From: Nautilus pompilius
Taxonomy: Eukaryota; Mollusca; Cephalopoda; Nautilida; Nautilidae
Direction: 5' to 3'
Assembly (NCBI GenBank): GCA_018389105.1
Contig: JACATO010000591.1
Span: 482,501 to 546,500, forward strand
Length of the DNA stretch: 64,000 bases
Below are positions 20,601-64,000 of this stretch, one piece after another. Below the pieces are notes generated by a model. That model did not search any database and was not told the origin of the DNA. It saw nothing but the letters and a program-made list of their open reading frames with translations. The translations under genes were made by a program, and so were the position numbers. Numbering within the stretch: position 1 is the first letter of the stretch; each line of letters starts with the position of its first letter.

Positions 20601-23600
20601 TCGAAAAATGGTCCTAGTTTGTTGCCAACTAACAAAACCAAAAACTTATTGTTTTAGTTTGTTTATTACTTTCCTTAGTTCACTTGAGCGTTATAGACTG
20701 TTTTTCTTCTAACATAATGAAGGTAAATAAAGTTGAACATATACAAAGTATTAAACAGATACTTAGCGTGCTTTTCTCCAATGGAGCATTACAACTAAGT
20801 AGCTTGGAAAAAATTTCACATCTAATAAAGTATTTCTTATTAAGCTTTAAGCACAGTCTACTACATATACCACAAACAAAACTCAGCAGCCTTGATTTTG
20901 AATTCCATAATGGGTTTTTATTACAGTAAAACCTCAGTTTAATGGACCTCCATTCAACGGACTTTGGAAGCAATGAACTATATCTGGTTCTCCTGACAAA
21001 AGTCTGCGATGAGTTGTGCAAAAACAAATTTTTTGCTTGGGCGCCTTTTGCATACGCATCGATACATGGTGTGTGGACATCTGCAGGCATCCATCTCCCA
21101 CTCTGTCGTTGACCACATTCCATGTCAGAAAGTAGTCTTTACGTCACGAGTTTTGCTTTCAATTCAGCATTTGTTTATGCTTTATTAGCATCTAAAGCGA
21201 ACAGAAAAGCTATCAACCATGGCCTCTTAAGATGGTGGTGGGAAAAGAAAGCATGTGGATTTGAGTGTTTTGCAAAAACTCAAGTTGATGGTGAAGTTTG
21301 AGTCTGGTGTGTGAGGAGTGTGGAGGAAAGAAACAAATGTCGAATATTCATGAGTGTGACATAAAGCTCAAACAATTTACGTTAAAGTTTGATGTTGATG
21401 TTTCAGGCAGTGGTTCGTCAATTGGTGGCAGGAAGCATATGAAAGTGGCGCAGGATAAAAACCTCGAGGAAGCTGTGTGTAAATGATATGTGCCACAACG
21501 GTTTAGTGGTATAAATGTTCATGGTGTCGAACTTCGCTCCACTGCGAATACGTTAGCGAAGCACATGAACAAAGTTTCAGGCTAATGATGGTTGGCTTTG
21601 GCATTTCCACAAATGCCATAGTATAATCAATAAGAAAACATATGGTGGATCTTTGAGTGCACTGACAGAGGAGACTGAGCCATTTAGAAATAATTTAAAT
21701 GATCTCATTAAGAAAGGGCTGATTTTGTCACTGGTTTACAATTTGGCAGCATTCGCTCCTGGAAAACACATTGGCCTATAAACACAAAAGCTCTACACCA
21801 CGCCGTAAGATAAGTAAGGAAAGGGTCTCAGCCTTACTTTGTGCTGATGCTGATAGAATTTATCATTTTAAACCTGTTGTTAGTGAATCCAAGTGACCAC
21901 GTTTTAAAGAACATCATGAGAGAGCTTCCAGTGATTTATTACAACTTGAAGAAAGCGTAGTTTACCATGGAAATCTTTAGCAACTGGTTGTGTAACCATT
22001 TCATCCCCAAGGTTCACAGGTACCAGACAGAGGTGCTAAAGATTGCACCAGAGAATGTCAATGCTATTCTCATCCTCAATAACATGCCTGCACATCCTAA
22101 CGTCGACAAGCTGTGCAGCAGTGATGGCATAGTTAAGTGTATGACCCTGCCACCTAATACCATGTCACTTATCCAGCCAATGAATCAGGGAATCATTGTT
22201 GCCTGCAATTGGTTGCATTGCAAGAAGTTCCTTGATGAGGGATGGTTATGTTGGAGGAAGATAGAGGACGACAACATGAGAGGGGAGCGAACGTTGCAGC
22301 CTCAAGCACTACAACTTGAAGTCTGCAATCTTCAACTTTGCTGCAGCATTGAAAGAGATGAAGATGTTCTTTAGCCAATGGTTGGAAGCTGCTGCTGTAT
22401 GATACTGATCCTGATTTTGACTTTGAGGTCAGTGATTACCATCATACAATTCTGAAGGCTGGAGATGATGATGAAGGCAATCCTGGGTACCAGGTTTTGA
22501 CAAAAAAGGAGATTGATGAAGAGGGTACTGCTGGCAAACCCCAAGAGTAGAGCAAAGAGGAAGAAGAACCAACAGTCAGCAAACCAAAAGCCTCCATTGT
22601 AAGAGACTACATGGATGACATCATCAATTACATTGGTGCATCATCAGGCTGCAAAGAGCAGCCATATTATCAACACTTTCACACGTTCAGGGAGACTATA
22701 ATAAGGAAGCAGCACAAGCATAGGGCTCAAATGAAACTTGACTCCTTTTTTAAACCTGTTGCTGCTTCTCCTTCACCTCCAATAAGAGGGCAGTAGAGCT
22801 TTCTAGCTCCTTAGACTGAGAATAAAACTTATTAAATATTTTTGTTAGTGTTTTCATTGCTGCTATTAGATAAGTACTCTTTAATGGGCTCAATATATGT
22901 CATCAGATATGGTCATTATATAAGATTGTATGTAAATGTCCGTTAAATTGAGGTTTTACTGTAAAAACCATAGTTTTCTCATATGATAAATTCTGTAGAA
23001 TATATTTTGCATTCAATAAAAATGAAAAATTATTCACTTCCATCAGAGTAAAGGGTGAAATTTTTATACATTTATATTTAATTATAGAACAATAAGTTAC
23101 AGTATTACAATTACTTGTGTGTGTGTGTGTGTGTTCGTTCATAAAAAACAGAAATATTAAAGGAAACCAATCTATCTTGAAAATTCTTACCTTTGTTAAC
23201 CAGTTACCATAATTTTCTAAAATATTCACCAACACGGAATCAGTAAATTTACTTTTAACATTTGAAAAATCGACTTCTGGTATGTCTTTGTCCTGAAATA
23301 ACAGAAACATTCACTTAAAAATGTATAATTAAGAAATAATTAATTAAATTACGACTTAAGGACTTAACTAATTAATAATAAAGGTATTTTTGAGTGCTTT
23401 AGAAGCTATGCTCTGCTTTATACTATTACAGCTAAATTCTTCAAAGTTAATTACCTGTATGGCTATAAAACCCAAAGGAAGGTAATCCACAAAAAAGATA
23501 ATATGTGGCAAACCTCATTCTGGTTAAACCAAATTTCCTGATTTTTTATTTTTGTTTTACATTAGTTTCTGTGGTGTTGGATGCTTACACACTGCTGGAT

Positions 23601-26600: not shown

Positions 26601-29600
26601 CAATCAAATAATTAGCTAGTTATTAAAGTGTTTATTATTATTATTATTATTATTTTTTTTTTTTTACAAGTTATGCTTTGTCATCTCCTTCGCCATTTTT
26701 TGGAGTCCATATTTGCCTTTTCATGCTTCCTTGATTCCTTTTGAATTGTCTTTGACATGTCATGCATGCACACCAGATTTCTCCAATCTGGCTTCCTAAA
26801 CAGCTAAGTAACACAATTGGCTTATTTTAAATTGTGCTAACGTTTATTACACATTTTTTGGAGAGAAAGTCAATGTGAAGTGTAAGTTGGATTGACTCCT
26901 TTCCCCGTTTTTCTTACCTTCGTTCCCATATAAGATGGTTTTGAGTATGAGACAAAGTCAGATCAACTACGGCAGTTAACCAAACTTACAACAAATCTTT
27001 CATAACAATGTCACACTGATTTGCTCTCAATGGTACTTTCAGGCTCATAAATACTGATGAACTTTGCCTGTGTATATCAGTGAACTACTCTGTGGGACAA
27101 GGTTCCAGATAAATCAGGTATTGATAGTTTTCCAACAAGTTTGTAATCATGGAGAAATATTTGAAACAAACTACAAACATTGTCGTCGGTTCTGGTATCA
27201 AAAGCCCAGTGTCTATTTTTAATCACTGAATGACAAGTGATCAGGTGATCCAGTGTCGTTTGCACCATGTTAAATTGCCTACTTTAAAAGGCCTTGTGTG
27301 TCAGTTTTACCTACCTTCAACATGTTTATTTTATTTTGAGATATTACAGCACACTCAAATTCAGAAATCAGACTCTCAATTCCATTTTGGGGTTAGTCGG
27401 ACATTACAGTCATAACAAAATTGAAATTGTGCTTCACAGTTAGTTTCTATTATTTTTCTCAACCTCTCTGTGAAAATCATTTTACCGAGATTACCTCGGT
27501 TTGAATTTTGCCTCCTTCAACTTTCATTTAACTTTCCCATTTCAATAAACCCCTTCAAGACTTATTAAGAGTCTACCTCAGTTTTCAGATATATATTTTG
27601 CAGTGTGTATTATATGCCCAGGAATATATGTTGGTTTGTCAATGGTATATCTTATCGACATTTTTAAATGATTAGATTTTATTATCTTTAATCAATCCTG
27701 GACATCTGTGTGTGTTGTATTTTTTTTTTTTTATCCAGCTACTGAAGAAGTTGACTTTCAGATAGTAGATGAAGTAACAAATGAGACATGTAGTGTAGAC
27801 ACTAACTGGGACAATAAGATGTTAATCGGGGTGAATAATTGTATAATAAAGACATGCATGCCCAATTTCAGACCCACTAACCTGCCATGCCTTGTTTGTT
27901 GATCTGTCTGTCATAGATTTTCTTTTCTAGTGTGTTGTCTGTAATGAGTCTGTAGATAAAGCAGCTTTTTTCCTGGCCATATCGATACACCCTGCATACA
28001 GCCTGGCAGTCATGACATGGATTCCATGAAGCATCCACAACAATCACTCTGTTAGCTCCTATCAGGTTAATACCCAGGCAGCCAGCTCTGGAACAGAGAG
28101 AGAGAGATACAAATAACAGACATCTCATCCCATAAATCAAACATAGCCACACTACACTTCAGTTTATGAAACAAGTTCCAATGTTGTGTTAAAGCAGAAA
28201 AACCACAAACTAGAGCATGCAGGTGACTTCTTGGAATTAAAATCCCAACAATGAACTGGTCGTAGATTTTGACCATGTCCTGTTGGTCTCTGGGTTCTCT
28301 CTGCTCATACTCTATTTTAACCGCCAGTCTCCTTTATATAAAAAAAACCTGCAGTAGTCAAAACCATACTTTATTTTTATCAACTATAATCCCCTTAGAT
28401 ATCTGTCTTGCTGCCTGTTGCCCATATGTGCAGCACAGTGTGAATTTTTACATTCAAATCAGAAACAACAGACTGAAGAATATTCGCAAAGAAACTGAAA
28501 TGTAGATTCTGTACAGTTTATGATGCATCCAGTGAAACCGATAGACTCTGACAAATATAAAACAGAATGATCCTGCAGCACTAATTCATAACACATTTCT
28601 CAAGTTTTTCTATTGATGATAATAAATAGTAACTTCACTTGCCTCAAATTTTTTGCTTTGTCTTTAAATCAATGGCATTTTCTGTGTTAATATCACTATA
28701 TACATATATATATATATATTTATTACACACATATGCTTGACATAGATAAATAGACACATCCTAAGATTCAAATAGGCCATCCCAGTCATGTGATAAGCAT
28801 GTCATTGCAAGCTTTGAGAAAGGGATACAGGCCAGTGAAAGCCTCAATCTGCAGACAGCCACGCCTCAAGCAGAAAGTTGAGAGAAACCGATTGACTTTC
28901 AAAGGCACATAGTTGGACAATTGGATTGGTAAAAGCCAGCGGAACACCTCGAAAGCACTGGATATTCCGCCATCAAAGGTTAATGGGTTGGCTTTCTGGT
29001 TCAAGAGCAGTCATTCGTGTGTGTCCTGGATGCCTAGAGCCAACAAAATAAAAAACTTCATGCAGTGAAAAGAAGTGTGGAAATCAAACCCTCAGCTACA
29101 GATGTGGCAGATGCACAGGTATTAATGAAAGCCAGGTCTCCACAGCTTGTGGGGTGGAACGAGAGGTTGGCAAGGTGGCATCGAATGCAATGAGCACCAG
29201 AAGATGATAGCTATGCTCTCTTTCACCTTTCGGAAAGCTGGAATTTTTTTCTGTTGAGTCCAGGTTTCCACAGAGTGGCCATGCACGGATATGGTGCTAT
29301 CCATCACAGGCATTACCACTGAAGTTTCTGCAGACCACGATAAAATAATATGCTAGTCTTGTCTGTCGTGCTGTGGGGTGCAATATTTGGGTCACTAGAC
29401 AGTCCCCACTGGTGGTCTGCGAAGGAACTGTAACTTCTGCCCAATGCATCAACAGTCTCTGAGAGAGACTTCTGCCCGTCCAGGCCACTGGTCCAAAGAG
29501 GAAATCCTTAGGGAACACAGTTCCCTTCCCAACCCCCTACCCTCCAACACTGAACAATACAAAAATAGAAAAATGATTAAGGCATCACAACCTTGCAATG

Positions 29601-41600: not shown

Positions 41601-44600
41601 ACAATCCAACACAAAGTGGTCAAGAAACGATGAGGCACATTGTAGAAAATCTAGAGTTAATTCTCAATAACTAGCATTAATATTGTTTATTTTAACGTGT
41701 GAACAACAGCAAACTCTCCTTTCTGCCATTAACGCCTGTATTACCTTTGAATAAAACCTGCCAGAAGACTATGCAAAACATGGGCTCTGAAGCGCATCAA
41801 CTTCAGATCTTCATGTGTGCTGTCGACGCACTGCCCATTCATTATTGGTCTTTCAAACATATTGCAAAATTCTGCCTTTGTTCCAAGGAAATTGGGACGT
41901 ACAAAATCCACCATGCACCAGTATTCAAGCAGATTATTCTGCAAAGGATAACCGGTCAGCACAATTCTCCTTCTGAAATACAATGGAAATAAATGATTTA
42001 CACTTCAGCGTGAAGAGTTAATTCTGTGATTTATCTCATTTTGGTGACCACCTAATCAAAAAAAAACAATTCTCGGCATTATACTTGGTGGCCCGGACTG
42101 TTCCTTTGTTTGTGGATCAGATTATTTTGTTTTGTAAACCAGTCTTCTGTGGATTTTACTGGCTTTGTTTCTTTATTTCTTTTGGTATGGCAGGGCTTCG
42201 TCAATAGGCAAATGACAAAAACTAAAACATCACAGATGGTAAAATGGGAAATATAAGGAACAGGATTATTACTATACTGTAAAACACAGAGCCGCGCACA
42301 CCCCTTGCCATCAGTTCTGTGCAGTTTCCAGCTGTTATTTACACTTGTTTCCTGCGATGGGCCCAAATATAAGGGTTAAATGGATACACAAAATGTTGTT
42401 TCTGTTTTACCTAGTCCTGATGTTCTTTAATGACTGTGAGATTCCAGCATGACTGTTTTTAATCCGGTGGCCTTCATCACAAACTACCAGATCAGGGCCA
42501 GGGTTCACCAAAGCTTTATGAATTCCTGAAGACAAAAGAGAACAGGTAAAAGTCACAAGTCTGGAGGTGCTTGAACCAAGCTAAGATCACAACAGGTAAA
42601 AATTACACACAAAATGCCCATGATTTTAAGATCAGACGGCTTAATGAACAGAAGACCCTACATTTGATGTTTTTTTTTCTCAAAACTTCCATGCTTTGCT
42701 AAGTTCTCAATTAATCAGTTTCAAGTATTTACCACAATTAAGGGGGCAGATTTAGAATAATCACGCACCTGACTGCAGAATTTTGTTTTGATCTTCCTCT
42801 TCGATATCTATTATTTCTGGTTCAGTGCTTTTCTTCTTCTTCTTCTTATGGCTGTGTATTGTGATTTTTCTTGAAGACAAAAGACGATACATCTCGTAAC
42901 CTAAGAGAAGAACGCCGCCAACGTTTTGCCACTCATCTGTTTAAGATAATCAGAAAAAAATTATTATTGAGCTACTGCAATAAAATTAAGAGATCAGACA
43001 AAAAAAATTACATGGGAAACGTTAGTTAATTTTTCTTTTTAAATTACTTAGAATCACTACATCGTTACTTGAAATTAGCATAAACAGAAGCTAAATATTT
43101 TAGTCATGTATCACAATGTGATCTATTTTTTCTTCTTTCAGATTATTCTGTCATTCTTAAAGAGCCAATTAACTACGGTCATTGATTTGAATTGTTTTTT
43201 TATCTTACACATGTACAATGGTTACATAACTGTTTTGCTGTTGAGTTTTCTCGTTGTATAGCAGCATATAATAGTGGTAGTTTTCTACATCACATCACTC
43301 TGTAAAATTGCCTTTCAACGAAAATCAAAGCGGTCGTTTTACAAGGTCAGCAGGACACAATGCTGGGCCTACCAGAGTTTTCCATGTTGTTATCCCAGCC
43401 ACGTGTGACCTGCTGCAGCAAAACAGTCAAGGTGGTGTGCGACTGGCTCATTTTTAATTATGCAAAACGTTTCCAGGTGTGCTGATCCCTTAAGCTATTC
43501 TTCAAGCCTGCTGCCATTCTAACTTCACTCGCTGAAATTTTTTTTAATGCTATGACCTCCTGACCTCAACTCTAATTATATGCTATTGGAGAAGATTAAT
43601 ACAAAATAATGGTAGTAAAAATGTAAATGAATCGAGTTAATTTATTAGATAATTTTTTGGGGGGTTTTGGATTACTGACCTTAACAGGGGATTAACACAT
43701 GCTTTTCATTCTGAGGAGTTATTTGTAGGCTTAATTCATATTATTTCTGAATCATTTTAGTCCTGTTTTCTTCATATTCTTGTTTTAGTTGGCTTTTACC
43801 TGGCTTTCTTTAGAACGCTACCTTGGCTCATATGCCGCATGTTGTTGTTGCACTATGCATTAGATGCTGATATGCATGTGCTGGTGTTGCTAAAACAGTT
43901 GCATCATAATCAATATTAGCCAATTTATCTGGACACTTGTGTGGCAAATTTTAATCCATTTATTTATCACACTAAATGAGCCAGCTTTATACAGAATATG
44001 AGCAGCAGACACTCACCCAAAACCTTTGCTCGAGAAAGCATTGTTTTATGACAATCATTGATGACAAAGAGTTTAAATGGTCTGTAGTGAATATCTGGAT
44101 CTTCCGGCTCACCATCCCGTGTTTCTGGCAGCCATAAGTTAAACTCTGCAATCCAGTTCTGTAGTGTGTTGATAGGGACGATACAAAGCACGGTCTGAGC
44201 TCCGGTGTGAGACAAGAACAAATCTATAACACCAACCAGCTGAATCGTTTTCCCTAGCCCCATACTGTGCGCCAGGATACAACCAAATCCACTGCTACTG
44301 TTGAAGCGTGACAGAGATTCTATCACATTGTCATACAGAAACCGTATACCACCTATCTGAGAAAGAGAGAGAAAAAATAGATAGATAGATATAGATATAT
44401 AGCTTCTACTAAAAAAATATATTAAGATCTTGAACTTGTTAAAACGTGACAGCTTAGTAACATCAGAATTTTTATGAAAAAGTATCATGTCATGATCAAA
44501 ATTCAAAATCTGTCCAGTGCTCATAATGGCTGACCATTATCAGTATTCGCTGTGTGATTCAGCAAATGTCTGGAACAATTAAAAATCAGGCAAATCGGGC

Positions 44601-56600: not shown

Positions 56601-58000
56601 AGCTTTTCTTCTCAGTGCGGCTGTACCTTTAATAGTTTGAATGCTGATGCACAAACATTGGTGGCCGTACAAGGTGAAGATGGCACCATGAATTGTTCCT
56701 TTGTCAACTGCCAGATAACTGTAAACATTTCTTTGATCAATTAAATGTTATGCAGTCATTGCACATAGTAATGAACTCTTGCAAAGTCCTTTTTTTTAAA
56801 ATAGCTTAACATCTTAATAACTGTACTTCACATGCAATGATGCTATATAGGGCTTATAACTGAGTAATCAATCTCAATACTAAATGTCAAAGGCAAGCCA
56901 CAATGTCTTTACATTACTTTTCTCTCTGGTTGTTTTAACCATGTCTTTGGTCATTCATAGATCTTCTTACTACTTGTTTAAATATTTTACTTCCTGTTAT
57001 CAACATCATCACGTCTAATGTATACAGTGTTAATAATTAATTGTTCTAGAATAGTCTTTGGAAATTATATAAAGAAACAACAATTTTAAACAGATGAATT
57101 TTAGTGTGTGGGTATCAAAATGCTTATTATATTAGTGCTGCATTCATCCTGACATTTTTTTCAAAAAATGAAGCCAAGTGCATATTGATTACAGAATTTT
57201 TAAAAAAGGATTAAAGTAAATATCTTTGTTTTTTTAATCCTTATCCACTCAACTGTTATCAGATAACTCAGTGCTGTGCATGTCTTGATAAAAATTTGTT
57301 CATCAATATCACCAAGGTAACACAAAGGTAAAAAAACAATCACAAGACTTTTTCTACATTTTAAAACAGTGCCATTAGAAATAACAGTATCAGTTAATAA
57401 AGTATCGGTTAGGTTACTTTTAGAGTTTGTAATACAGGTTTGGAAAAGATCCTTTTGGGCGGTCAGTAATACTATAACACCAGAGGTCATGTATAAGATA
57501 AGAAAAAAAAAAGAATACACTTAAAATGCTAAGAAACAGAAAATTACCTGATATTTTTTCGTTGGGCTTTCTCTTTATCACTTTTACTGCTCTTCTTGCG
57601 GCGTGAAAGCTTCCGTTTTTTTTTTACTGGCTCACTGCGGCTCTCCGTATTATCACTCTCGTCAGCCTCTTCACTTCCAGACTTGTTAGTAGCATCCCCA
57701 CCACGAGTGCTGTTGCTCCCTTCGGTTCCGCTGTCAGAGTTATCTGACGTACTACCCGAGGTGCTCTGTTCTGAGTCATTGTCGTCGTCCTCCTCTTCAG
57801 AATTGCCCTCACTTGAACAGTTACTTTTGCTGTCTTGATTTTTTCCCATGGAATCATTTGGTTCATCTTGTTTCACTGATGCTCTGTCCAAAGACAAATC
57901 CTGTGATAGTACAGAGTTCAGTGCATTACTTTCTTCTTGGCTTCTTTCCATCATAGCTTCTTGAGCAGCTGATAGCGAATGAGCATACAAATTTTCAAAC
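10725..58000 (-). CDS. RAD54L2: RAD54L2/ARIP4, SNF2-family helicase-like ATPase, complete in 20 coding exons
   Basis: Family role: nuclear DNA-dependent ATPase of the Rad54/ATRX branch, which interacts with androgen receptor and other steroid receptors in vertebrates and remodels chromatin or protein-DNA complexes. Seen: 20 exons joined with consistent phases give 1449 residues from ATG 57954. Order: acidic/basic N-terminus (1-135), coiled-coil segment with LREDQLE (136-187), acidic SUMO-interaction-like motifs (188-240), ATPase lobe 1 with GLGKT (324-328) and DEGH (477-480), TGYPLQNN (about 506-513), lobe 2 with LDGST, LLSTRAGCLG and [11 protein letters not shown] (853-863), then the ARIP4-specific C-terminal blocks and a Gln/Ser/Pro-rich tail. 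DEGH rather than DEAH, and Cys in QAVCR, match ARIP4 as I recall it. No stops or frameshifts occur, so it is likely functional. The start is uncertain: the frame stays open for 15 codons upstream of that Met within exon 1. Confidence 0.95.
12902..14184 (+). mobile_element. Mariner-family DNA transposon, copy 1, defective
   Basis: The ends are imperfect inverted repeats: 12904-12925 against 14161-14182 (AGGTYGTTACAAAAGTTTYG). Between them is a transposase-like frame from the ATG at 13061 with HTH blocks ([29 protein letters not shown]), then [13 protein letters not shown]-type, [11 protein letters not shown] and [13 protein letters not shown] blocks, a DD34D mariner layout. Frameshifts and stops break the frame (for example after 13100, about 13380 and about 13700). 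TA precedes the left end (12900-12901). Sits in the intron between RAD54L2 exons 19 and 20. Confidence 0.88.
14550..15215 (-). mobile_element. Tc1-like transposase remnant
   Basis: On the - strand, short blocks in three frames follow Tc1 order: [20 protein letters not shown] (N-terminal HTH-like, about 15200), a TDKSKFxLF block (about 14850) and [20 protein letters not shown] with VLIHRALLG (about 14790-14700), which is the segment after the first catalytic Asp. Heavily broken by stops and frameshifts. No terminal repeats found. Confidence 0.5.
15230..15790. other. GC-balanced segment of unknown origin
   Basis: This block is richer in GC than its AT-rich surroundings and carries overlapping short ORFs on both strands (for example 15212-15493 on -, 15532-15834 on +). 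None is recognised. It may be another repeat. Confidence 0.3.
16184..16423 (-). CDS. RAD54L2: RAD54L2 exon 19, YIRTxxGRIFAVR block
   Basis: Encodes [40 protein letters not shown] and IFAVRSK. The GxYIRTxxGRIFAVR element is a strong ARIP4-specific signature in the C-terminal region. A variable Ser/Thr-rich stretch follows. Acceptor CTTACAG, donor GTCA/GTAAGT. Confidence 0.93.
16424..18741. other. RAD54L2 intron 18; no gene recognised
   Basis: Contains a GC-balanced block at about 16.6-17.4 kb without a recognisable ORF and a short tRNA-like head (GCAGTGGCTCAATC, near 17715) that could be a truncated SINE. The rest is AT-rich intron. Confidence 0.4.
18742..18896 (-). CDS. RAD54L2: RAD54L2 exon 18
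   Basis: Encodes [38 protein letters not shown] and [13 protein letters not shown]. PVASVKPxxSTPxP and the following GVxVxxVV block align with ARIP4. Acceptor CTTCCTTAG, donor ACAG/GTGAGT. Confidence 0.9.
19676..19863 (-). CDS. RAD54L2: RAD54L2 exon 17
   Basis: Encodes [34 protein letters not shown] and [16 protein letters not shown]. It matches EPFEHESLLLNRKDHKLTKAE and RPSYAQYY of ARIP4. Donor CAGTG/GTGTGT. Confidence 0.93.
20924..22961 (+). mobile_element. Tigger/pogo-type DNA transposon with both ends, defective
   Basis: Terminal inverted repeats begin CAGTAAAACCTCARTTTAAY at 20924 and end with the complement at 22961. Both ends are flanked by TA (20922-20923 and 22962-22963), the Tigger target duplication. 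Inside, on +, an N-terminal [12 protein letters not shown]-type piece (about 21270) and a DDE-domain piece [20 protein letters not shown] with [18 protein letters not shown] (about 22050-22195) are visible. Stops and frameshifts split the frame. The Asp expected in LLDNAPAHP is Asn here. Lies in the intron between RAD54L2 exons 16 and 17. Confidence 0.88.
23116..23134. repeat. (TG)n microsatellite
   Basis: A run of nine to ten TG units just upstream of RAD54L2 exon 16's donor side in the intron. Confidence 0.9.
23191..23292 (-). CDS. RAD54L2: RAD54L2 exon 16
   Basis: 102 nt encoding [34 protein letters not shown]. The match to ARIP4 (EKEPAPQV, SVLQLACLKYPHLITK) is weak, but position, phase 0/0 and splice sites (TTATTTCAG; AAAG/GTAAGA) agree. 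Confidence 0.88.
23293..25333. other. RAD54L2 intron 15; no feature recognised
   Basis: AT-rich intron with a 83-residue ORF at 23581-23832 (+) that matches nothing I know. I see no gene or transposon in it. Confidence 0.5.
25334..25407 (-). CDS. RAD54L2: RAD54L2 exon 15
   Basis: A 74-nt exon encoding [20 protein letters not shown] and LLRYV, matching DRVVDDLNP, FTRKEVENLLHFV of ARIP4. Phase 1 in, 0 out. It continues the brace helices after motif VI. Confidence 0.93.
25925..26221 (-). other. Unidentified 89-codon ORF in RAD54L2 intron 14
   Basis: An open - strand frame from 26221 to 25952 encodes a protein-like sequence with balanced composition ([32 protein letters not shown]), more complex than neighbouring AT-rich ORFs. 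It may be a fragment of a transposon ORF or a retroposed exon. No splice sites or family match can be assigned. Confidence 0.3.
26632..26653. repeat. (TTA)n microsatellite followed by T run
   Basis: Seven TTA-type units, then about 13 T, within the intron between exons 14 and 15. Confidence 0.85.
27882..28087 (-). CDS. RAD54L2: RAD54L2 exon 14, motif V/VI exon
   Basis: Encodes [40 protein letters not shown] and ends [11 protein letters not shown]. Motif [13 protein letters not shown] carries the arginine finger region and the Cys (in place of the usual Gly) typical of ARIP4. Acceptor TGTTCCAG, donor GCAG/GTTAGT. Confidence 0.95.
28698..28720. repeat. (TA)n microsatellite
   Basis: Short TA run in the intron between exons 13 and 14. 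The GC-balanced block that follows (28.8-29.75 kb) has several short ORFs on both strands, none recognised. Confidence 0.8.
30018..31615 (+). mobile_element. Pogo-like element, N-terminal (HTH) half, defective
   Basis: On +, 30318-30500 encodes [19 protein letters not shown], then [20 protein letters not shown], a brinker/pogo-type helix-turn-helix. After a frameshift comes [19 protein letters not shown] (about 30480-30540), the CENPB-type second domain. No DDE domain follows. ATAAGTCGAT at about 30019-30028 and its complement at 31603-31612 may mark the ends. The boundaries are tentative, the HTH is clear. Confidence 0.65.
31684..31783 (-). CDS. RAD54L2: RAD54L2 exon 13
   Basis: Encodes [20 protein letters not shown] and [15 protein letters not shown] and LLSTRAG (continued in exon 14) are SNF2 motifs IVa and V. 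Acceptor TGATTACAG, donor CAAG/GTAAAG. Confidence 0.94.
31784..33183. other. RAD54L2 intron 12; nothing recognised
   Basis: AT-rich intron with a (CTT)n(ATT)n run near 32574-32604. I see no gene or repeat ORF. Confidence 0.5.
33184..33287 (-). CDS. RAD54L2: RAD54L2 exon 12
   Basis: Encodes [20 protein letters not shown] and KWCKNKNYF, aligning with SQSLSTLALIEEFL and KWVRNISYFR of ARIP4. Donor TTCA/GTAAGT; the split Arg codon is completed by the next exon. Confidence 0.93.
33288..34575. other. RAD54L2 intron 11; GC-balanced block 33.85-34.4 kb
   Basis: The central 500 bp is less AT-rich and contains a GA run (33910-33925), suggestive of an old repeat, but no ORF or Pol III box was recognised. 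Confidence 0.35.
34576..34694 (-). CDS. RAD54L2: RAD54L2 exon 11
   Basis: Encodes [46 protein letters not shown] is helicase motif IV at the start of lobe 2. Acceptor CATTTTAG, donor TTCAG/GTAAGC. Confidence 0.94.
35073..35321 (-). CDS. RAD54L2: RAD54L2 exon 10, variable insertion between lobes
   Basis: Begins [17 protein letters not shown] (conserved IWNHPDV). A Ser/Asn/Gln-rich low-conservation stretch follows, and the exon ends SDTVISYDW (ARIP4: NIVTYEW). The 249-nt exon is phase 0/0. The middle corresponds to the poorly conserved insertion of vertebrate ARIP4. Confidence 0.92.
35966..37169 (+). mobile_element. Mariner-family DNA transposon, copy 2, defective
   Basis: Same family and orientation as the copy at 12.9-14.2 kb. 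The transposase frame starts near 36107 ([14 protein letters not shown]) and shows [31 protein letters not shown] and a frameshifted third catalytic block. About 20 bp of the left terminal repeat is missing relative to copy 1. TA precedes the left end at 35964-35965, and the right end reads GACAAAACTTCTGTAACCTAA. Stops and indels inactivate it. Confidence 0.88.
37400..39220 (+). mobile_element. Pogo-like element, C-terminal part with deleted catalytic core
   Basis: On +, 38107-38334 and 38336-38787 encode pieces of a pogo/POGK-type transposase: [59 protein letters not shown], then directly the acidic C-terminus ending [20 protein letters not shown] and TAA. The segment with the later catalytic aspartates is missing, so there is an internal deletion. 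Similar TATAATAYRCACCC motifs at about 37423 and 39152 lie in the same orientation; true ends are unresolved. Confidence 0.7.
40180..40357 (-). CDS. RAD54L2: RAD54L2 exon 9
   Basis: Encodes [34 protein letters not shown] and [12 protein letters not shown]. It aligns with RRGHTVLKIHLPAKEE and NPLKAFCVCCK of ARIP4, the linker between the two ATPase lobes. Donor AAG/GTCAGT, phase 0. Confidence 0.94.
40358..41744. other. RAD54L2 intron 8; nothing recognised
   Basis: AT-rich except a GC-richer stretch at about 40.9-41.3 kb that carries no convincing ORF or RNA gene. Confidence 0.45.
41745..41972 (-). CDS. RAD54L2: RAD54L2 exon 8
   Basis: Encodes [20 protein letters not shown], then [25 protein letters not shown] and [21 protein letters not shown] is helicase motif III. 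LHSLL fits the LxxLL nuclear-receptor box and is conserved with vertebrate ARIP4. Acceptor TATTTCAG, donor CAAAG/GTAATA. Confidence 0.95.
42411..42525 (-). CDS. RAD54L2: RAD54L2 exon 7, DEGH box
   Basis: Encodes [20 protein letters not shown] and [22 protein letters not shown] (477-480) is the Walker B/motif II variant shared by ARIP4 and ATRX. The aspartate and glutamate needed for Mg-ATP hydrolysis are present. Acceptor TCTTCAG, donor CTAG/GTAAAA. Confidence 0.95.
42769..42936 (-). CDS. RAD54L2: RAD54L2 exon 6
   Basis: Encodes [20 protein letters not shown], then a Lys run and [12 protein letters not shown], which aligns with [15 protein letters not shown] and VIIDLDEED of ARIP4. The Lys run is encoded by a (CTT)n-like tract at about 42833-42847, a possible length-variable microsatellite in coding sequence. 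Confidence 0.93.
42937..44016. other. RAD54L2 intron 5; nothing recognised
   Basis: AT-rich intron without an ORF or repeat I can assign. Confidence 0.5.
44017..44356 (-). CDS. RAD54L2: RAD54L2 exon 5, Walker A exon
   Basis: Encodes [18 protein letters not shown], then [15 protein letters not shown] with Walker A GLGKT (residues 324-328), motif Ia [13 protein letters not shown] and FNLWLPE. It ends in [12 protein letters not shown]. Intron read-through follows the donor G/GTGAGT at 44011-44016. Strong match to the first ATPase lobe of ARIP4. Confidence 0.95.
44800..46000 (-). mobile_element. KRBA2-type integrase remnant
   Basis: On -, the 45852-45604 frame ([18 protein letters not shown], then [20 protein letters not shown]) matches the segment ahead of the integrase zinc-binding part in KRBA2-like proteins. 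Further down, [14 protein letters not shown] (about 45380) is the post-catalytic block, and [12 protein letters not shown] with [10 protein letters not shown] (about 45030-44950) is the C-terminal region. Most of the integrase core is lost or frameshifted. Lies in the 5.9 kb intron between exons 4 and 5, in the host gene's orientation. Confidence 0.6.
46390..46840 (+). mobile_element. Possible Tc1-like C-terminal fragment
   Basis: On +, after frameshifts, [15 protein letters not shown] (about 46600-46650) resembles the SPDLNPIEHLWD catalytic block and IKGGVLP (about 46790) resembles the usual KGGPT tail of Tc1 transposases. Preceding FQDNKI (about 46556) fits FQQDN. Short and degenerate. Confidence 0.4.
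48480..49950. other. Unassigned ORF-rich block in RAD54L2 intron 4
   Basis: Several overlapping ORFs of 60-160 codons occur on both strands in GC-balanced sequence (for example 49286-49771 on +, 49074-49331 on -). Composition suggests an old transposon, but no family could be assigned. The stretch 46.9-48.5 kb is plain AT-rich intron. Confidence 0.3.
50282..50508 (-). CDS. RAD54L2: RAD54L2 exon 4
   Basis: Encodes [20 protein letters not shown], then [20 protein letters not shown] and ends AKIVKPHQ. HVNDxLNQxDxLGRVLVN is a near-exact ARIP4 signature just ahead of the ATPase core. Two further SUMO-interaction-like motifs ([21 protein letters not shown]) are present. Ends in phase 0. Confidence 0.93.
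50626..52198 (+). mobile_element. Tc1-like transposon with terminal inverted repeats, defective
   Basis: CCAAAATTATTAGGACAAGC at about 50637-50656 is the inverted partner of GTTTGTCCCAATAATTTTGG at 52168-52187. The 1.57 kb length is typical of Tc1. On +, pieces of transposase follow in order through many stops, including [17 protein letters not shown] (about 51755), where the family usually has DND, and a C-terminal helical region ([19 protein letters not shown], about 51925-51980). Inactive. Lies in the intron between RAD54L2 exons 3 and 4. Confidence 0.8.
52473..52556 (-). CDS. RAD54L2: RAD54L2 exon 3
   Basis: An 84-nt exon encoding [20 protein letters not shown] and [17 protein letters not shown] is a hydrophobic core followed by acidic residues, typical of SUMO-interacting motifs, and aligns with ICLDSSSGSED of vertebrate ARIP4. 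The donor AAAG/GTAATA and acceptor TTTTAG fit phases 1 and 1. Confidence 0.85.
52840..53260 (-). mobile_element. Possible Tc1-like fragment
   Basis: On -, [11 protein letters not shown] (about 53090) and [18 protein letters not shown] (about 53010-52965) resemble the end of Tc1 transposases, where the third catalytic residue block precedes HLW. Heavily degenerate; low confidence. Confidence 0.35.
54091..54245 (-). CDS. RAD54L2: RAD54L2 exon 2
   Basis: Encodes [20 protein letters not shown] followed by [11 protein letters not shown], matching the ARIP4 segment with LLREDQLE and ELERRKRLE. It is a predicted helical, coiled-coil-like stretch. IKTE near the end fits the sumoylation consensus psi-K-x-E. 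Acceptor TTTTCTAG, donor CAGT/GTAAGT. Confidence 0.9.
54870..55950 (+). mobile_element. FLYWCH/MULE-type transposase remnant
   Basis: On +, across three frames: [10 protein letters not shown]-type FLYWCH-like piece (about 54935), [13 protein letters not shown] (about 55110), [20 protein letters not shown] with a frameshift (about 55365-55425; family block KHWFMDGTFKTVPTLF), [20 protein letters not shown] (about 55550-55615; family block TDFEQAAINA) and a tail to about 55940. These are MULE transposase blocks in order. In the second block Asn replaces the catalytic Asp. Stops and frameshifts inactivate it. Located in the intron between exons 1 and 2. Confidence 0.7.
55951..57547. other. RAD54L2 intron 1, distal part; nothing recognised
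   Basis: AT-rich sequence without an assignable ORF, RNA gene or repeat. Confidence 0.5.
57548..58000 (-). CDS. RAD54L2: RAD54L2 exon 1 (first coding exon recognised)
   Basis: The acceptor TTTTTTTAACAG precedes GTTTGAAAA, so it is not the transcript's first exon. The first in-frame Met is at 57954 (MMERSQEES); 15 open codons precede it and could be 5' UTR or coding. The product is rich in Ser, Asp and Glu and then basic ([15 protein letters not shown]), a plausible nuclear localisation signal. The donor is ATCAG/GTAATT. Overall layout resembles the acidic N-terminus of vertebrate ARIP4, with little exact identity. Confidence 0.85.
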
Positions 58001-58870
58001 CTGTTAAAAAAAATAGGCACAAAAATATTATTTGCTTTACTAAAATCACTTTAATAACAAAAATCCATTTACTTAAAGTTTGGTATACAGTAGACAACCA
58101 ACAGTGAACATTAGTTAAATGTTTTCTGTCACTAACCAAAAACCTTTTCTTTTCATGTTTTCCTCAACTACTCAACAGATAAGTACAAGCAAAGTAAACC
58201 ACTGGCATTTGAAATTGGAAAGTAAGGCCTACTGTTAAGAAAATGAATAAGAATGAACAGATGCATCTATCTTCCAAGTGATGCAGCCTAGCCTTGAGAA
58301 CTACAAGTTTATTATCCTTCTTTGAACATGTGCACCAAGCTCTGATGAATGCAGCAAATGTCTGAAGATCTGCATGGAGTAGTGAAAACTCAGTTCTCAA
58401 GCCAATCTGGTTTCCTCTTGAGTGTTGGAGCAGTTTATGCAAAATGCACCCATTTGTCTTTGGTAATGGTCCACAAGCAGCAAATACAACTGTGCTTCCG
58501 CTCTATCTCAGTCAAGATATGCTGGTGATCTCTCTTCTCTGGTTTATGGCAGTTCTCTACGTAAGCTTGGCAGCTGATGAGAAGCTGTCCATTTTGTTTA
58601 TAGGTCAAAGTATGCAAGAAGCCACAATGGATAGCTAACTGGACGCATCTGATGTCTCTCCTCTAGAACAGACGAGGCCTGGTCCAATGCAGGTTCTAGA
58701 ATTTTACATAAGAACCTGCCATACTGTTAATAATTAGTCTCTCAAAGCCAAAAATTTTTTGCAATTTGTCATTCTATGAATTTTTACAATTGAGAAATGG
58801 TTAGTTGTCGTTTGAAAGCCAAAGATCATCATTCTGCAAAGTCTGCAGTAAAGTCGCTTTTTGGGTGAGT
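58001..58870. other. RAD54L2 5' intron between exon 1 and GT array
   Basis: Moderately AT-rich. It holds a 92-codon ORF on - (58164-58442) and small ORFs on +, none recognised. Confidence 0.4.
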
Positions 58871-60550
58871 TTGTGTGTGTGTTTCTTGTGTCGTGTGTTT
58901 CTTGTGTGTTTGCGTGTTTCTTGCGTGTTTGCGCATTGTGTGTTTCTTGCGTGCTTGCGTGTTTCTTGTGTGTTTGTGTGTTTCTTGTGTGTTTGTGTGT
59001 TTCTTGCGTGTTTGCGTGTTTCTTGCGTGTTGTGTGTTTCTTGTGTGTTTGTGTGTTTCTTGCGTGTTTGTGTGTTTCTTGCGTGTTTGCGTGTTGTGTG
59101 TTTCTTGTGTGTTGTGTGTTTGTGTGTTTCTTGTGTGTTTGTGTGTTTTTTGCGTGTTTGTGTGTTTCTTGCGTGTTTGTGTGTTTCTTGCGTGTTTGCG
59201 TGTTGTGTGTTTCTTGCGTGTTGTGTGCTTCTTGCGTGTTGTGTGTTTCTTGTGTGTTTGTGTGTTTCTTGCGTGTTTGTGTGTTTCTTGTGTGTTTGCG
59301 TGTTGTGTGTTTCGTGTGTGTTTGTGTGTTTCTTGCGTGTTTGTGTGTTGTGTGTTTCTTGTGTGTTTGTGTGTTTCTTGCGTGTTTGTGTGTTTCTTGT
59401 GTGTTTCTTGTGTGTTTGTGTGTTTCTTGTGTGTTTGTGTGTTTCTTGTGTGTTTGCGTGTTGTGTTGTTTCTTGTGTGTTTGTGGTTTCTTGCGTGTTG
59501 TGTGTTTCTTGCGTGTTTCTTGTGTGTTTGCGTGTTGTGTGTTTCTTGTGTGTTGCGTGTTTCTTGTGTGTTTGCGTGTTGTGTGTTTCTTGCGTGTTGT
59601 GGTTTCTTGTGTGTTTGCGTGTTTGCGTGTTTCTTGCGTGTTGTGTGTTTCTTGCATGTTTGCGTGTTGTGTGTTTCTTGTGTTTGTGTGTTTCTTGTGT
59701 GTTGTGTGTTTCTTGTGTGTTGTGTGTTTCTTGCGTGTTTGCGTGTTGTGTGTTTCTTGTGTGTTGTGTGTTTCTTGTGTGTTTGTGTGTTTCTTGTGTG
59801 TTGTGTGTTTCTTGTGTGTTTGCGTGTTTCTTGCGTGTTGTGTGTTTCTTGTGTGTTTGTGTGTTTCTTGTGTGTTGTGTGTTTCTTGTGTGTTGTGTGT
59901 TTCTTGCGTGTTTGCGTGTTGTGTGTTTCTTGTGTGTTGTGTGTTTCTTGTGTGTTTGCGTGTTTCTTGCGTGTTGTGTGTTTCTTGTGTGTTTGTGTGT
60001 TTCTTGTGTGTTGTGTGTTTCTTGTGTGTTGTGTGTTTCTTGTGTGTTTCTTGCGTGTTTGCGTGTTTCTTTTGTTGTGTGTTTCTTGTGTTGTGTGTTT
60101 CTTGTGTGTTTGCGTGTTGTGTGTTTCATGTGTGTTTGTGTGTTTCTTGCGTGTTGTGTGTTTCTTGCGTGTTGTGTGTTTCTTGTGTGTTTCTTGCGTG
60201 TTTGCGTGTTTCTTGCGTGTTTGCGTGTTGTGTGTTTCTTGCGTGTTGTGTGTTTCTTGCGTGTTGTGTGTTTCTTGCGTGTTGTGTGTTTCTTGCGTGT
60301 TGTGTGTTTCTTGTGTGTTGTGTTTCTTGCGTGTTGTGTGTTTCTTGTGTGTTTCTTGCGTGTTGTGTGTTTCTTGTGTGTTTCTTGCGTGTTGTGTGTT
60401 TCTTGTGTGTTTCTTGCGTGTTGTGTTTCTTGTGTGTTTGCGTGTTTCTTGCGTGTTGTTGTGTGTTTCTTGCGTGTTTCTTGTGTGTTGTGTGTTTCTT
60501 GCGTGTTTGCGTGTTGTGTGTTTCTTGTGTGTTTGTGTGTTTCTTGTGTG
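58871..60550. repeat. 1.68 kb GT-rich tandem array built from three short words
   Basis: The array is a concatenation of TTTCTTGYGTG (11), TTTGYGTG (8) and TTGTGTG (7), giving local periods of 11, 18, 19 and 26 bp in irregular order. The + strand has almost no A (single As seen near 58933, 59653 and 60128), so stop codons are nearly impossible on either strand and ORFs of 440-590 codons appear in several frames. These should not be annotated as proteins. Y varies between C and T at a CpG position. It lies in the 5' intron of RAD54L2, directly beside the CpG-rich promoter region. Confidence 0.95.
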
Positions 60551-60599
60551 CGCGCATTTTAAAGCTGCATTCCAGATGCTGATAATTAACACATCTTTA

Positions 60600-61719
60600 C
60601 AAATTTAGAGGCTCTGGCGTATAAAGGCTGACTGTTCGTTCAGCATCAGCAACAGTACTGCAGGAGCACAAAGAGATGTGCCTGCCTCCGAGCAACTAAC
60701 TACCGTGAGGAGGAGGAGTCGGCGAGGTTCCCACATCAAGACCGAAGCCCTGGTCTAGCTGGGCGAGCCTGCACAGTACAATAAATCTGGCTGTTCGTTC
60801 CTCTCCCTTTCTGGGGTTGGGGTTTTTAATGTCAACGACGGGCCCCGTGTCATCGGCTACTGGCTCTCACCACTGCGGGGGGGGGAGGGGTTATATTGGA
60901 GTCTTCTCCCTCTCGGGTGGACAACTGTTAATCTACATTCGCTTAACATAAACCCACAAAACCGGAAATCGGGTTCCGAGAAGGGGATCGCCAGGGGAGG
61001 GGGTGAGGTCAGACACGGGAAGGACCGACATAGCTGAGAAAAGAAAGGGATGGGGGGAGGGGGGGTAAAGGAAGGGCGCCTGGACCCTTCTTCCCTAATA
61101 AAAGGCTAACGACCGAACGAACGGGACGGATCGTACCTGGTGGGGGAGCGGAACTCTGTCGCTAATATTATTATAATATAAAGTGGTAACAGACACCACC
61201 ACAACTACCCCCCCCCTCTCCCCTGCCGTCGCCGGGGGGGGGCCGTGCGCGCCAGTCGGCTGGACTCGCGTCGCGATCGGGATACAAGAGAGCACGAACG
61301 ATCTTACCGGCCAGCAGCAGCCGCATCAGGAAGTTTTCCCCCCCCGGACAATCAAACCGTGTACACGTACAGTTCTTCCTCCTCCTCGTCCGATCCTGGT
61401 GTACACAAAGAATAGGTCCCACTTATCAATGACATCGTCATGTGACCCAAACATTAAAAAAAAAAACAAAAAAAAAAGGGGGGGAGGCGGCGGCTTCATG
61501 AGGGATTTTATTTTTTAAAGCGTAGAAAAAAAAAATGGTTAAAATACGTATTCATTTTACGGCGAGGGGCCGCCCCCCCCTTTTTTTTCCTCTCTCTCTC
61601 TTTTCTGCGGGCGCCGCTGCGCAGTCATTAAGTAATGTCCGTCCCAGCCTCGCAAAATATATTAAATATTCAGTAGCCTCGAGCCAGATGGGACTTAACT
61701 TATACGGCTCGGGGGGGTG

Positions 61720-61754
<35 letters not shown>

Positions 61755-62340
61755 TGAGTGATTAGGGCAGAGTCGCGACCCGGCCATCGCTGCCCCCGAG
61801 GAAAAAAGAAAGTGAAAGTGCTTTTACTTGTTCCCCTCATAGTTGTTGGCAGACCCTCCCTCCCTGTATTCCACCAACCACTGCATCACTAAGGCTGAAA
61901 TCTGCACTATAATTTCAGAGAAATATGTGGGGGGTGGAGGAGGGCTTATAGTTTTTATTTTAAAGATATTGCAAAAATGTTAGGTATTAAATTCATAGGG
62001 ATATTTAATAGTAAATTAAAAAGTTATTTTAATTATAATATGGTAATTAAATGAACAGCCAGTCTAGTTTTTTTTTTTGTTTTTTTTTTTAAATCCTGGC
62101 TTACGTTTATTAAAAAAAAACCATTAAAATTTTTGTTTTATACCTCATTATTTAAATAATGTAAAATTAGTTATAATATTAATATTAAAATGCCTGAGGA
62201 TTAACTAAGATTTATTGTTGAGACAGCAATAGCGCTCTGGGTTGTAGACTATCTACCGACCCCCCCCCCTCGTCATTAGGTCACGCCCAAACGATGTACG
62301 ATGTCTGTACCAGTAGTAGCGAGGAAGATCGTGTAAAAAT
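60600..62340. promoter_or_regulatory. CpG-rich region with homopolymer runs
   Basis: GC- and CpG-rich sequence in contrast to the rest of the window. It has long G or C runs (about 60876-60890, 61052-61067, 61210-61242, 61338-61345, 61570-61580, 62260-62270), a (TTA)n tract at 61723-61754 and an AT-rich break at about 61.95-62.2 kb. It probably belongs to the RAD54L2 promoter CpG island. - strand donor-like sites occur at 61301-61307 (GTAAGAT) and 61131-61136 (GTACGA), but no exon joining them in frame was found. Confidence 0.55.
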
Positions 62341-62873
62341 TGCTTCGAAACTAGCAGACACTGACGTATTCATTCCAAATATTTAAGAAAAAAGCTTCAG
62401 CTTTCGAAATATGTGCGGAATTCGGGGGGGGGGCCACTTTTCCCCACTCCACCCCATCATTGGTCCGAACAAGGGACCCAAAAGACGGGGAGACAACTGG
62501 AATGGATATCGGGAATGGGGGGCGGTGACCTGGAATCAGATAATCTCTCTCTCTGGAGAATATACTGCCCGAAATAAAACCATCATGTAGTAGATTAGGC
62601 AAAACAGAGAAACCGGGAACCTCTGCTGGTGTAAACCTCCCCACCCAGGTGTTGGGGATGGGGCGGACAAAGAAGACAGACGTAGATGCATCATCCATCC
62701 ATCTACAGATCGTCCATGATAGTATAATTTTAGTCCGTTGTTTGTATCTTGGCAATAAGAATCTCAGGGTAGATGTGGCATTTGTTTGTCTCAGCTTCCG
62801 AGTATCGGAGATGAGCGAAATGCAACTGGCAGCGCGCGATCGTGCAGGCAGGGAAGATAAAGATCGAGCATCG

Positions 62874-63290
62874 GTGACACCTGCGGGGTCGGAGGACGAC
62901 TCTGTGGCAGGACAAACCATTCTCTGCAGTGAAAGATGGCGCGCCCACCCCAGTGACACCTGCGGGGTCGGAGGTAGAAGAGCCGGTCGGAGGACGACTC
63001 TGTGGCAGGACAAACCATTCTCTGCAGTGAAAGATGGCGCGCCCTCCCCACCCCACCCCACCTCAGTGACACCTGCGGGGTCGGAGGTAGAAGAGCCGGT
63101 CGGAGGACGACTCTGTGGCAGGACAAACCATTCTCTGCAGTGAAAGATGGCGCGCCCTCCCCACCCCACCCCACCCCACCTCAGTGACACCTGCGGGGTC
63201 GGAGGTAGAAGAGCCGGTCGGAGGACGACTCTGTGGCAGGACAAACCATTCTCTGCAGTGAAAGATGGCGCGCCTTCCCCACCCCACCGG
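62874..63290. repeat. Four tandem copies of an 80-118 bp promoter unit
   Basis: GTGACACCTGCGGGGTCGGA recurs at 62874, 62953, 63066 and 63184 (steps 79, 113, 118). Each unit ends with CTCTGCAGTGAAAGATGGCG and CGCC. The first unit lacks a 19-bp stretch (GGTAGAAGAGCCGGTCGGA type), and units differ in the number of CCCCA repeats. The AAGATGGCGCGCC part (62931-62945, 63029-63043, 63142-63156, 63260-63274) resembles the YY1 motif AAGATGGCGGC found close to CpG-island promoters. Confidence 0.92.
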
Positions 63291-63479
63291 GGAGGCGTTT
63301 ATAGGGAAACAATTTATTGCTGTCAACCTGGGATTTCTCGACAGACCCCCTTCCATAAGGCTAACGCAAAAAAACCGTACGGGAGAGAGAGAGGAGGAGG
63401 AGTCCAGGGTTTGGCATCGCTCAGGACCCGAACGACTCGCGGTCTCCCCCCCTCCCGGATCCGCTGCGTAACGGAAACC

Positions 63480-63700
63480 GACGCACACCGAACACCGGCG
63501 CAGCGCCATTGTTTCCGCGCATGCTCGGCGGTGTCCGCTGTGGGATGTACCAGCTTCTCGTCCGATCCTCTTTTCCTTTCCTGCCCGCCTGCGGGTGGTG
63601 TTAGCCACTCTACCAGCCGAGCCGAGAGCGGGGTGGGGAGATGAGATCCTTACCTACATGGCGCGACAAGGTTCACGACAGAGACAACGTGGAGCAATGG
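63480..63700. promoter_or_regulatory. Probable RAD54L2 core promoter region
   Basis: CpG-dense sequence with an NRF1-like GCGCATGCTC at 63517-63526 (consensus GCGCATGCGC) and no TATA box. It lies just downstream (in + coordinates, around) of a candidate first exon on the - strand. Assignment rests on CpG density, motifs and gene orientation. Confidence 0.45.
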
Positions 63701-63720
63701 TAAGCCACGACCGACCGACC
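63654..63720 (-). other. RAD54L2: Candidate 5' noncoding exon of RAD54L2
   Basis: On the - strand the sequence ending GCGCCATGTAG is followed by GTAAGG (63648-63653), a good donor. The only ATG just before it is immediately followed by TAG, so the exon would be noncoding and carry a start-stop uORF. The 5' end and the join to exon 1 at 58000 are not proven. Confidence 0.35.
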
Positions 63721-63732
63721 GACCGACCGTCC
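63704..63732. repeat. Short (CGAC)n tandem repeat
   Basis: About six CGAC units in the CpG island, followed by CCGTCCGCCCG. The remaining sequence to 64000 is GC-rich with short A and G runs and no recognised gene. Confidence 0.8.
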
Positions 63733-64000
63733 GCCCGCTAGTGCCACCGACACCGAGGAAGAAGGAGAGGAGAACAGCGCACAATTTAGAATATGGAGCG
63801 ATTTCTTTTTTCATATTTTTTTATTATTATTGCAAAAAAAAAGGAAGCTGTTAGACGGGGGGGGTGCGGGCAACAATCGCGGGTCTCTCTCGGGTGGCGG
63901 GGCTGTTTATTAGCAGCAAGATCAAAATGCCGGGTGACTACTACCGCTGGTTCGCCGAGATAAGTCAGGGGTGGGGGAATAACCATCGTGACCCACCCCG

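Follow-up and report, generated by a model that had tools for sequence, protein, structure and literature searches.

VNTRs beside genes and strand-biased repeats in introns are the described systems closest to the locus studied here. A human survey reports that CpG islands and regions 1 kb upstream are enriched for VNTRs; slipped-strand mispairing, unequal crossover, and gene conversion are named there as their proposed causes (PMC8096271). In Daphnia introns, the sense strand favors GT over AC (PMC3152781). In C. elegans, two motifs in introns that are associated with multiple splicing decisions belong to a minisatellite (PMC4039745), and hnRNP L is reported to bind CA dinucleotides spaced 1 to 3 nt apart, and less so at 4 nt (PMC3823766). 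Among the titles listed for papers on minisatellites that are strand asymmetric or GT rich, on minisatellites in cephalopods, and on those with stop-free frames, none concerned this locus.

The window analyzed is a stretch of 64,000 nucleotides from Nautilus pompilius (contig C568, positions 482501 to 546500), and the repeat lies toward its right end:

58871 to 60550, plus strand: GT-rich minisatellite made of the heptamer TTGYGTG with spacers none, T, or TTTC, forming 7-, 8-, and 11-bp words that mostly come as 18/19-bp pairs (TRF, composition, exact and tolerant parses, heptamer view).
58871 to 58960, plus strand: left end of the array, degenerate and including a short run of TG; 35 of its 90 bases lie outside exact words.

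As in the gene-adjacent human VNTRs, a tandem unit of at least 7 bp is found close to both a gene and CpG-rich sequence; in contrast to them, the array has irregular 7-, 8-, and 11-bp words in place of a single monomer (PMC8096271). It shares with the Daphnia intronic repeats a GT-rich composition and strongly different strands. Unlike them, its AC-rich strand is the sense strand of the RAD54L2-like gene described below, and its unit is longer than 6 bp (PMC3152781).

The 1,680 bp of the array comprise 976 T, 547 G, 154 C, and 3 A on the plus strand, the latter at positions 58935, 59656, and 60128. The longest A-free run is 720 bp, as opposed to 57 bp in the remaining window. TRF reported one array at 58872 to 60550, with a best row of period 19 (score 1602), overlapped by rows with periods of 18, 11, and 9. 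These coordinates, the composition, and the parse all agree with a 1.68-kb array of variable word order, as an earlier sequence-only reading had described it. That reading also held that the array parses completely into TTTCTTGYGTG, TTTGYGTG, and TTGTGTG. As exact words, however, these account for 1,529 of the 1,680 bases (91.0%) and leave 18 gaps; the whole array is covered only by a tolerant parse of 185 words with 27 edits, in which 19 words are imperfect. Bases outside the exact words make up 116 of the 1,590 bases beyond the left edge and 0 of the 90 bases at the right end.

The three words, offered in place of a fixed monomer, do occur, but they reduce to one heptamer, TTGYGTG, with a spacer that is absent, T, or TTTC. 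The heptamer terminates the array words and is found 170 times in the array; the pieces around the heptamers are TTTC in 73 cases, none in 42, and T in 39, together 154 of 171. The order of the words is variable but not free. The 11-bp word alternates with either the T-spacer or the spacerless word, and it follows itself 10 times as opposed to 41.4 times (sd 3.6) in shuffles. Because this self-succession is rare, the basic unit is the 18/19-bp pair, and the idea of a small grammar gains little over an 18/19-bp minisatellite with variant units. Along the array, the T-spacer word yields to the spacerless one, its share of the two short words changing from 0.68 to 0.25 (position test, P 0.009).

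A fixed higher-order period, for which a check on the word order had been proposed, was rejected: none of the word lags between 1 and 60 was conspicuous relative to a first-order chain (best z 1.7). Exact duplications were present within the array, the longest being

59783 to 60042, plus strand: 124 bp from 59783, found again from 59919 (offset 136).

A second one measured 107 bp, with an offset of 173. Over short distances, runs of 6, 7, 8, and 10 words were shared in excess of a three-segment Markov null (uncorrected P of 0.043, 0.039, 0.025, and 0.017, respectively). Against the same null there was no excess of 5-word runs (P 0.153) or of shared word runs at long range (P 0.14 to 1.0), and a run of 12 words, the longest that recurs, was inside the range of a single first-order chain (mean 8.6, maximum 15 in 200 runs). 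The signal of local multiword (segmental) duplication is thus a modest one.

The array has head-to-tail units in the range of about 7 to 100 bp that is typical of minisatellites (TRF periods 9, 11, 18, and 19; words of 7, 8, and 11 bp), together with interspersed variant units and internal duplications, the statistics of the latter being modest. We searched its parts against 727,640,739 bases (727.6 Mb) of the genome in 2,558 contigs, using exact words, for which the counts are lower bounds. All 24 of the matches listed for the compound word TTTCTTGYGTGTTGTGTGTTTCTTG (at least 24 in total) fell inside the array, as did 12 of the 14 listed for TTTCTTGTGTGTTTGTGTG (at least 14 in total). The remaining two TTTCTTGTGTGTTTGTGTG matches were isolated words in a pair of similar stretches on contig C2036. 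These stretches, at about 3975 to 5474 of locus L009 and 4184 to 5683 of locus L010, are 1.5 kb each, nearly identical by eye, and about 0.91 Mb apart on that single contig, which could reflect a large-scale duplication or a duplicate made by the assembly. The left flank (58600 to 58870, 271 bp) and the right flank (60551 to 60860, 310 bp) each had a single match in the genome, namely itself. Within the limits of exact words and lower-bound counts, the array seems private to its locus.

Other classes of repeat were rejected on these results. Satellite DNA does not fit, since the listed exact matches, whose counts are lower bounds, gave no sign of large arrays of the unit elsewhere and lay in the array in 24 of 24 and 12 of 14 cases. 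Single-copy flanks that match themselves alone do not fit a transposable element, nor a solo LTR carrying an internal repeat. Directly right of the array, TATAAA (60620) and AATAAA (60780) stand 160 bp apart and resemble a small transcription unit or an LTR; the solo LTR hinted at by this pair was rejected because neither flank recurs in the genome. An interstitial telomere-like repeat would have G runs in its GT strand, which is at odds with 2 GG dinucleotides in 1,680 bp.

As a background we used 24 loci of the same genome (239,603 bases). They were not a random sample: 20 were taken at chosen steps along the same contig, 2 continue the window, and 2, which look alike, hold the isolated words. 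TRF gave 37 rows in these loci, of which 8 were at least 300 bp and 2 at least 1,000 bp, both from one array. In the background, A-free runs reached 71 bp and T-free runs 40 bp, as opposed to the 720-bp A-free run of the array; within these 24 loci, the near-complete lack of A is particular to the array and extreme, a point against an ordinary origin. One of the 24 loci, L024, contained a further GT-rich array:

C568, 2100005 to 2104211 (L024, 5 to 4211): GT-rich array of at least 4,207 bp with a 22-bp unit, truncated by the end of the sequence taken (TRF, frame scan).

Like the studied array, it is GT-rich and strand asymmetric, consists of variant units, contains CpG, and has very long open minus frames (1,089, 783, and 1,401 codons). 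It differs in its 22-bp unit, in its A content (213 of 4,207 bases), and in having 59 to 63 stops in each plus frame. Strand-asymmetric GT-rich arrays with very long open reading frames are therefore not unique to the studied locus.

Taken together, we consider it very likely that the array, known from one assembly, is a locus-private minisatellite at the edge of the promoter-like region between a RAD54L2-like and an IFT122-like gene, that it grew by slippage or unequal exchange, and that it needs no dedicated function. The data show its composition, its word structure, its gene neighbors, and, as far as the searches reach, its private status; it is an ordinary GT-rich minisatellite. It is real in the one assembly, where an assembly error is still conceivable. 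The adjacent genes are represented by the following exons:

57548 to 58000, minus strand: RAD54L2-like N-terminal exon, with acceptor AG at 58002-58001 and donor after 57548 (score 4.9), assigned by its open reading frame, donor score, and similarity to human RAD54L2.
63641 to 63699, plus strand: first coding exon of an IFT122-like gene, assigned by similarity to human IFT122; joined to position 1043 of locus L011 it reads MRSLPTWRDKVHDRDNVEQCIWDLCFKPDG, which resembles the start of IFT122.

The minus-strand gene is of the SNF2 type, with an SNF2-related domain at 43967 to 44536 (E 1.1e-12) and a helicase C domain at 27877 to 28158 (E 2.9e-6); its nearest solved sequence is ATRX (E 4.4e-15). 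Its N-terminal exons resemble human RAD54L2. The two domains, the ATRX match, and this resemblance make the assignment to RAD54L2 in the sequence-only reading plausible. The clear acceptor of the exon at 57548 to 58000 implies a further exon upstream. Leaving aside the donor of the known exon, all five minus-strand donor candidates that scored at least 4 in the interval 58001 to 64000 lie right of the array, at 61137, 61308, 63062, 63180, and 63654. Intron 1 of the RAD54L2-like gene is for this reason its likely location, and the array would then be part of the pre-mRNA. The RAD54L2-like and IFT122-like genes are divergent. Just upstream of the first IFT122-like exon, TRF also found three copies of a 113- to 118-bp unit (62944 to 63288); a query of 62940 to 63290 found, besides itself, a 66-bp piece next to it and 39 bp of contig C565. 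Elsewhere, the window holds a piece of a DDE_1 transposase (21961 to 22374, plus strand, E 1.9e-11) and, at its left end, an exon of an N-acylglucosamine 2-epimerase (4775 to 5368, plus strand, E 3.5e-19).

If the array is transcribed with the RAD54L2-like gene, its RNA could act as an intronic platform, an unstructured CA-rich tract to which many hnRNP L-type proteins would bind, thereby influencing splicing or the processing of the first intron. The minus-strand RNA carries the dense CACACA of an hnRNP L-type CA repeat, 113 copies in 1,680 nt (67.3 per kb), as opposed to 0.56 per kb for the remainder of that strand in the window. Lacking GU, it offers no 5' splice site; it also contains no AAUAAA, and its pyrimidine runs do not exceed 2. 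AG is absent from the plus-strand RNA. Neither strand folded beyond its shuffles in the one 300-nt piece computed for each (minus, -3.7 kcal/mol versus -3.76; plus, -15.6 versus -14.08, sd 2.39), so RNA structure was rejected as a property of the array; for the minus strand this agrees with an unstructured tract. Binding of hnRNP L to the minus-strand RNA is plausible given the reported spacing rules (PMC3823766), and the splicing-linked intronic minisatellite motifs of C. elegans offer a parallel (PMC4039745). However, these properties are unspecific, being equally true of any CA repeat, and the known RAD54L2-like exon starts about 870 bp from the array. We regard such a platform as unlikely. 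Its more elaborate form is very unlikely: here the array would be a length-variable dial in RAD54L2 intron 1 or at the edge of the promoter, where the nearly U-free CA platform would titrate hnRNP L-type proteins during transcription and so tune RAD54L2 output.

The second alternative is that the array serves to mark or to maintain a border between a CpG-rich promoter region and a CpG-poor gene body. The region in question is

60501 to 64000, no strand assigned: CpG-rich, promoter-like region between the divergent genes (CpG o/e 0.73 to 1.05 in 500-bp bins).

The CpG o/e was 0.32 over positions 1 to 58000 of the window, 0.06 at 58001 to 58500, left of the array, and 1.20 to 1.35 in three 500-bp bins of the array, which probably sits at the edge of a CpG-rich region common to both genes. 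The variable site of the heptamer was CG in 61 cases, TG in 109, and CA in 1. Decay of methylated CpG should yield CA and TG in about equal numbers, so we rejected it as the origin of the C/T variants. Given the scarcity of CA, it is most likely that both states passed through amplification together with the repeat, or else that methylation of the site is low. The step in CpG content and the single CA, too few for decay of methylated CpG after amplification, speak for a border element. Nevertheless, the repeat unit and its homogenization set the CpG content, and the L024 array is CpG rich too, so there is nothing special to the border; we find this explanation most improbable.

The sequence-only reading described the array as stop free in all six frames. 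This stood for five, which contain no stop inside the array and run for 576 to 591 codons between stops, well outside what chance would give, but not for one minus frame, which is divided into 463 and 156 codons by

60126 to 60128, minus strand: TGA at 60128-60126, the sole stop codon within the array (frame scan).

No stop can form without A, since all three stop codons and their reverse complements on the plus strand require it; the near absence of plus-strand A therefore explains the long open reading frames, as had been argued, and the five open frames are a consequence of composition and no separate observation. There is scarcely any chance that one long frame is translated as a low-complexity protein: the five frames and a 442-aa open reading frame starting with ATG would suit a coding repeat, but composition alone accounts for the lengths, one minus frame is stopped, the mixed 7-, 8-, and 11-bp words and 18/19-bp pairs shift the frame where a coding unit would keep it, no Pfam family was found at E 0.01 in the one frame scanned (58829 to 60604, minus strand), and the L024 array likewise has very long open frames.

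For the ordinary, locus-private minisatellite, we infer the growth mechanism, the intronic position, the length polymorphism, and the neutrality. A TG-rich seed would have expanded by replication slippage, unequal exchange, or both, with one-word and multiword segments as the units exchanged. The degenerate left edge and homogenized interior would fit either process. A seed unit without A leads to an array almost without A, and this in turn to few stops, long open reading frames, a minus-strand RNA with hardly any U and no 5' splice sites, and the absence of AG from the plus-strand RNA. The array, as known from one assembly, is probably a VNTR.

These findings call for caution in annotation: when one base is missing from a tandem array, stops are almost automatically absent as well, and the resulting very long open reading frames may be mistaken for genes. 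Should the array tune RAD54L2 or IFT122, its interest would be moderate. If its length varies, an array near two gene starts could act as a population marker.
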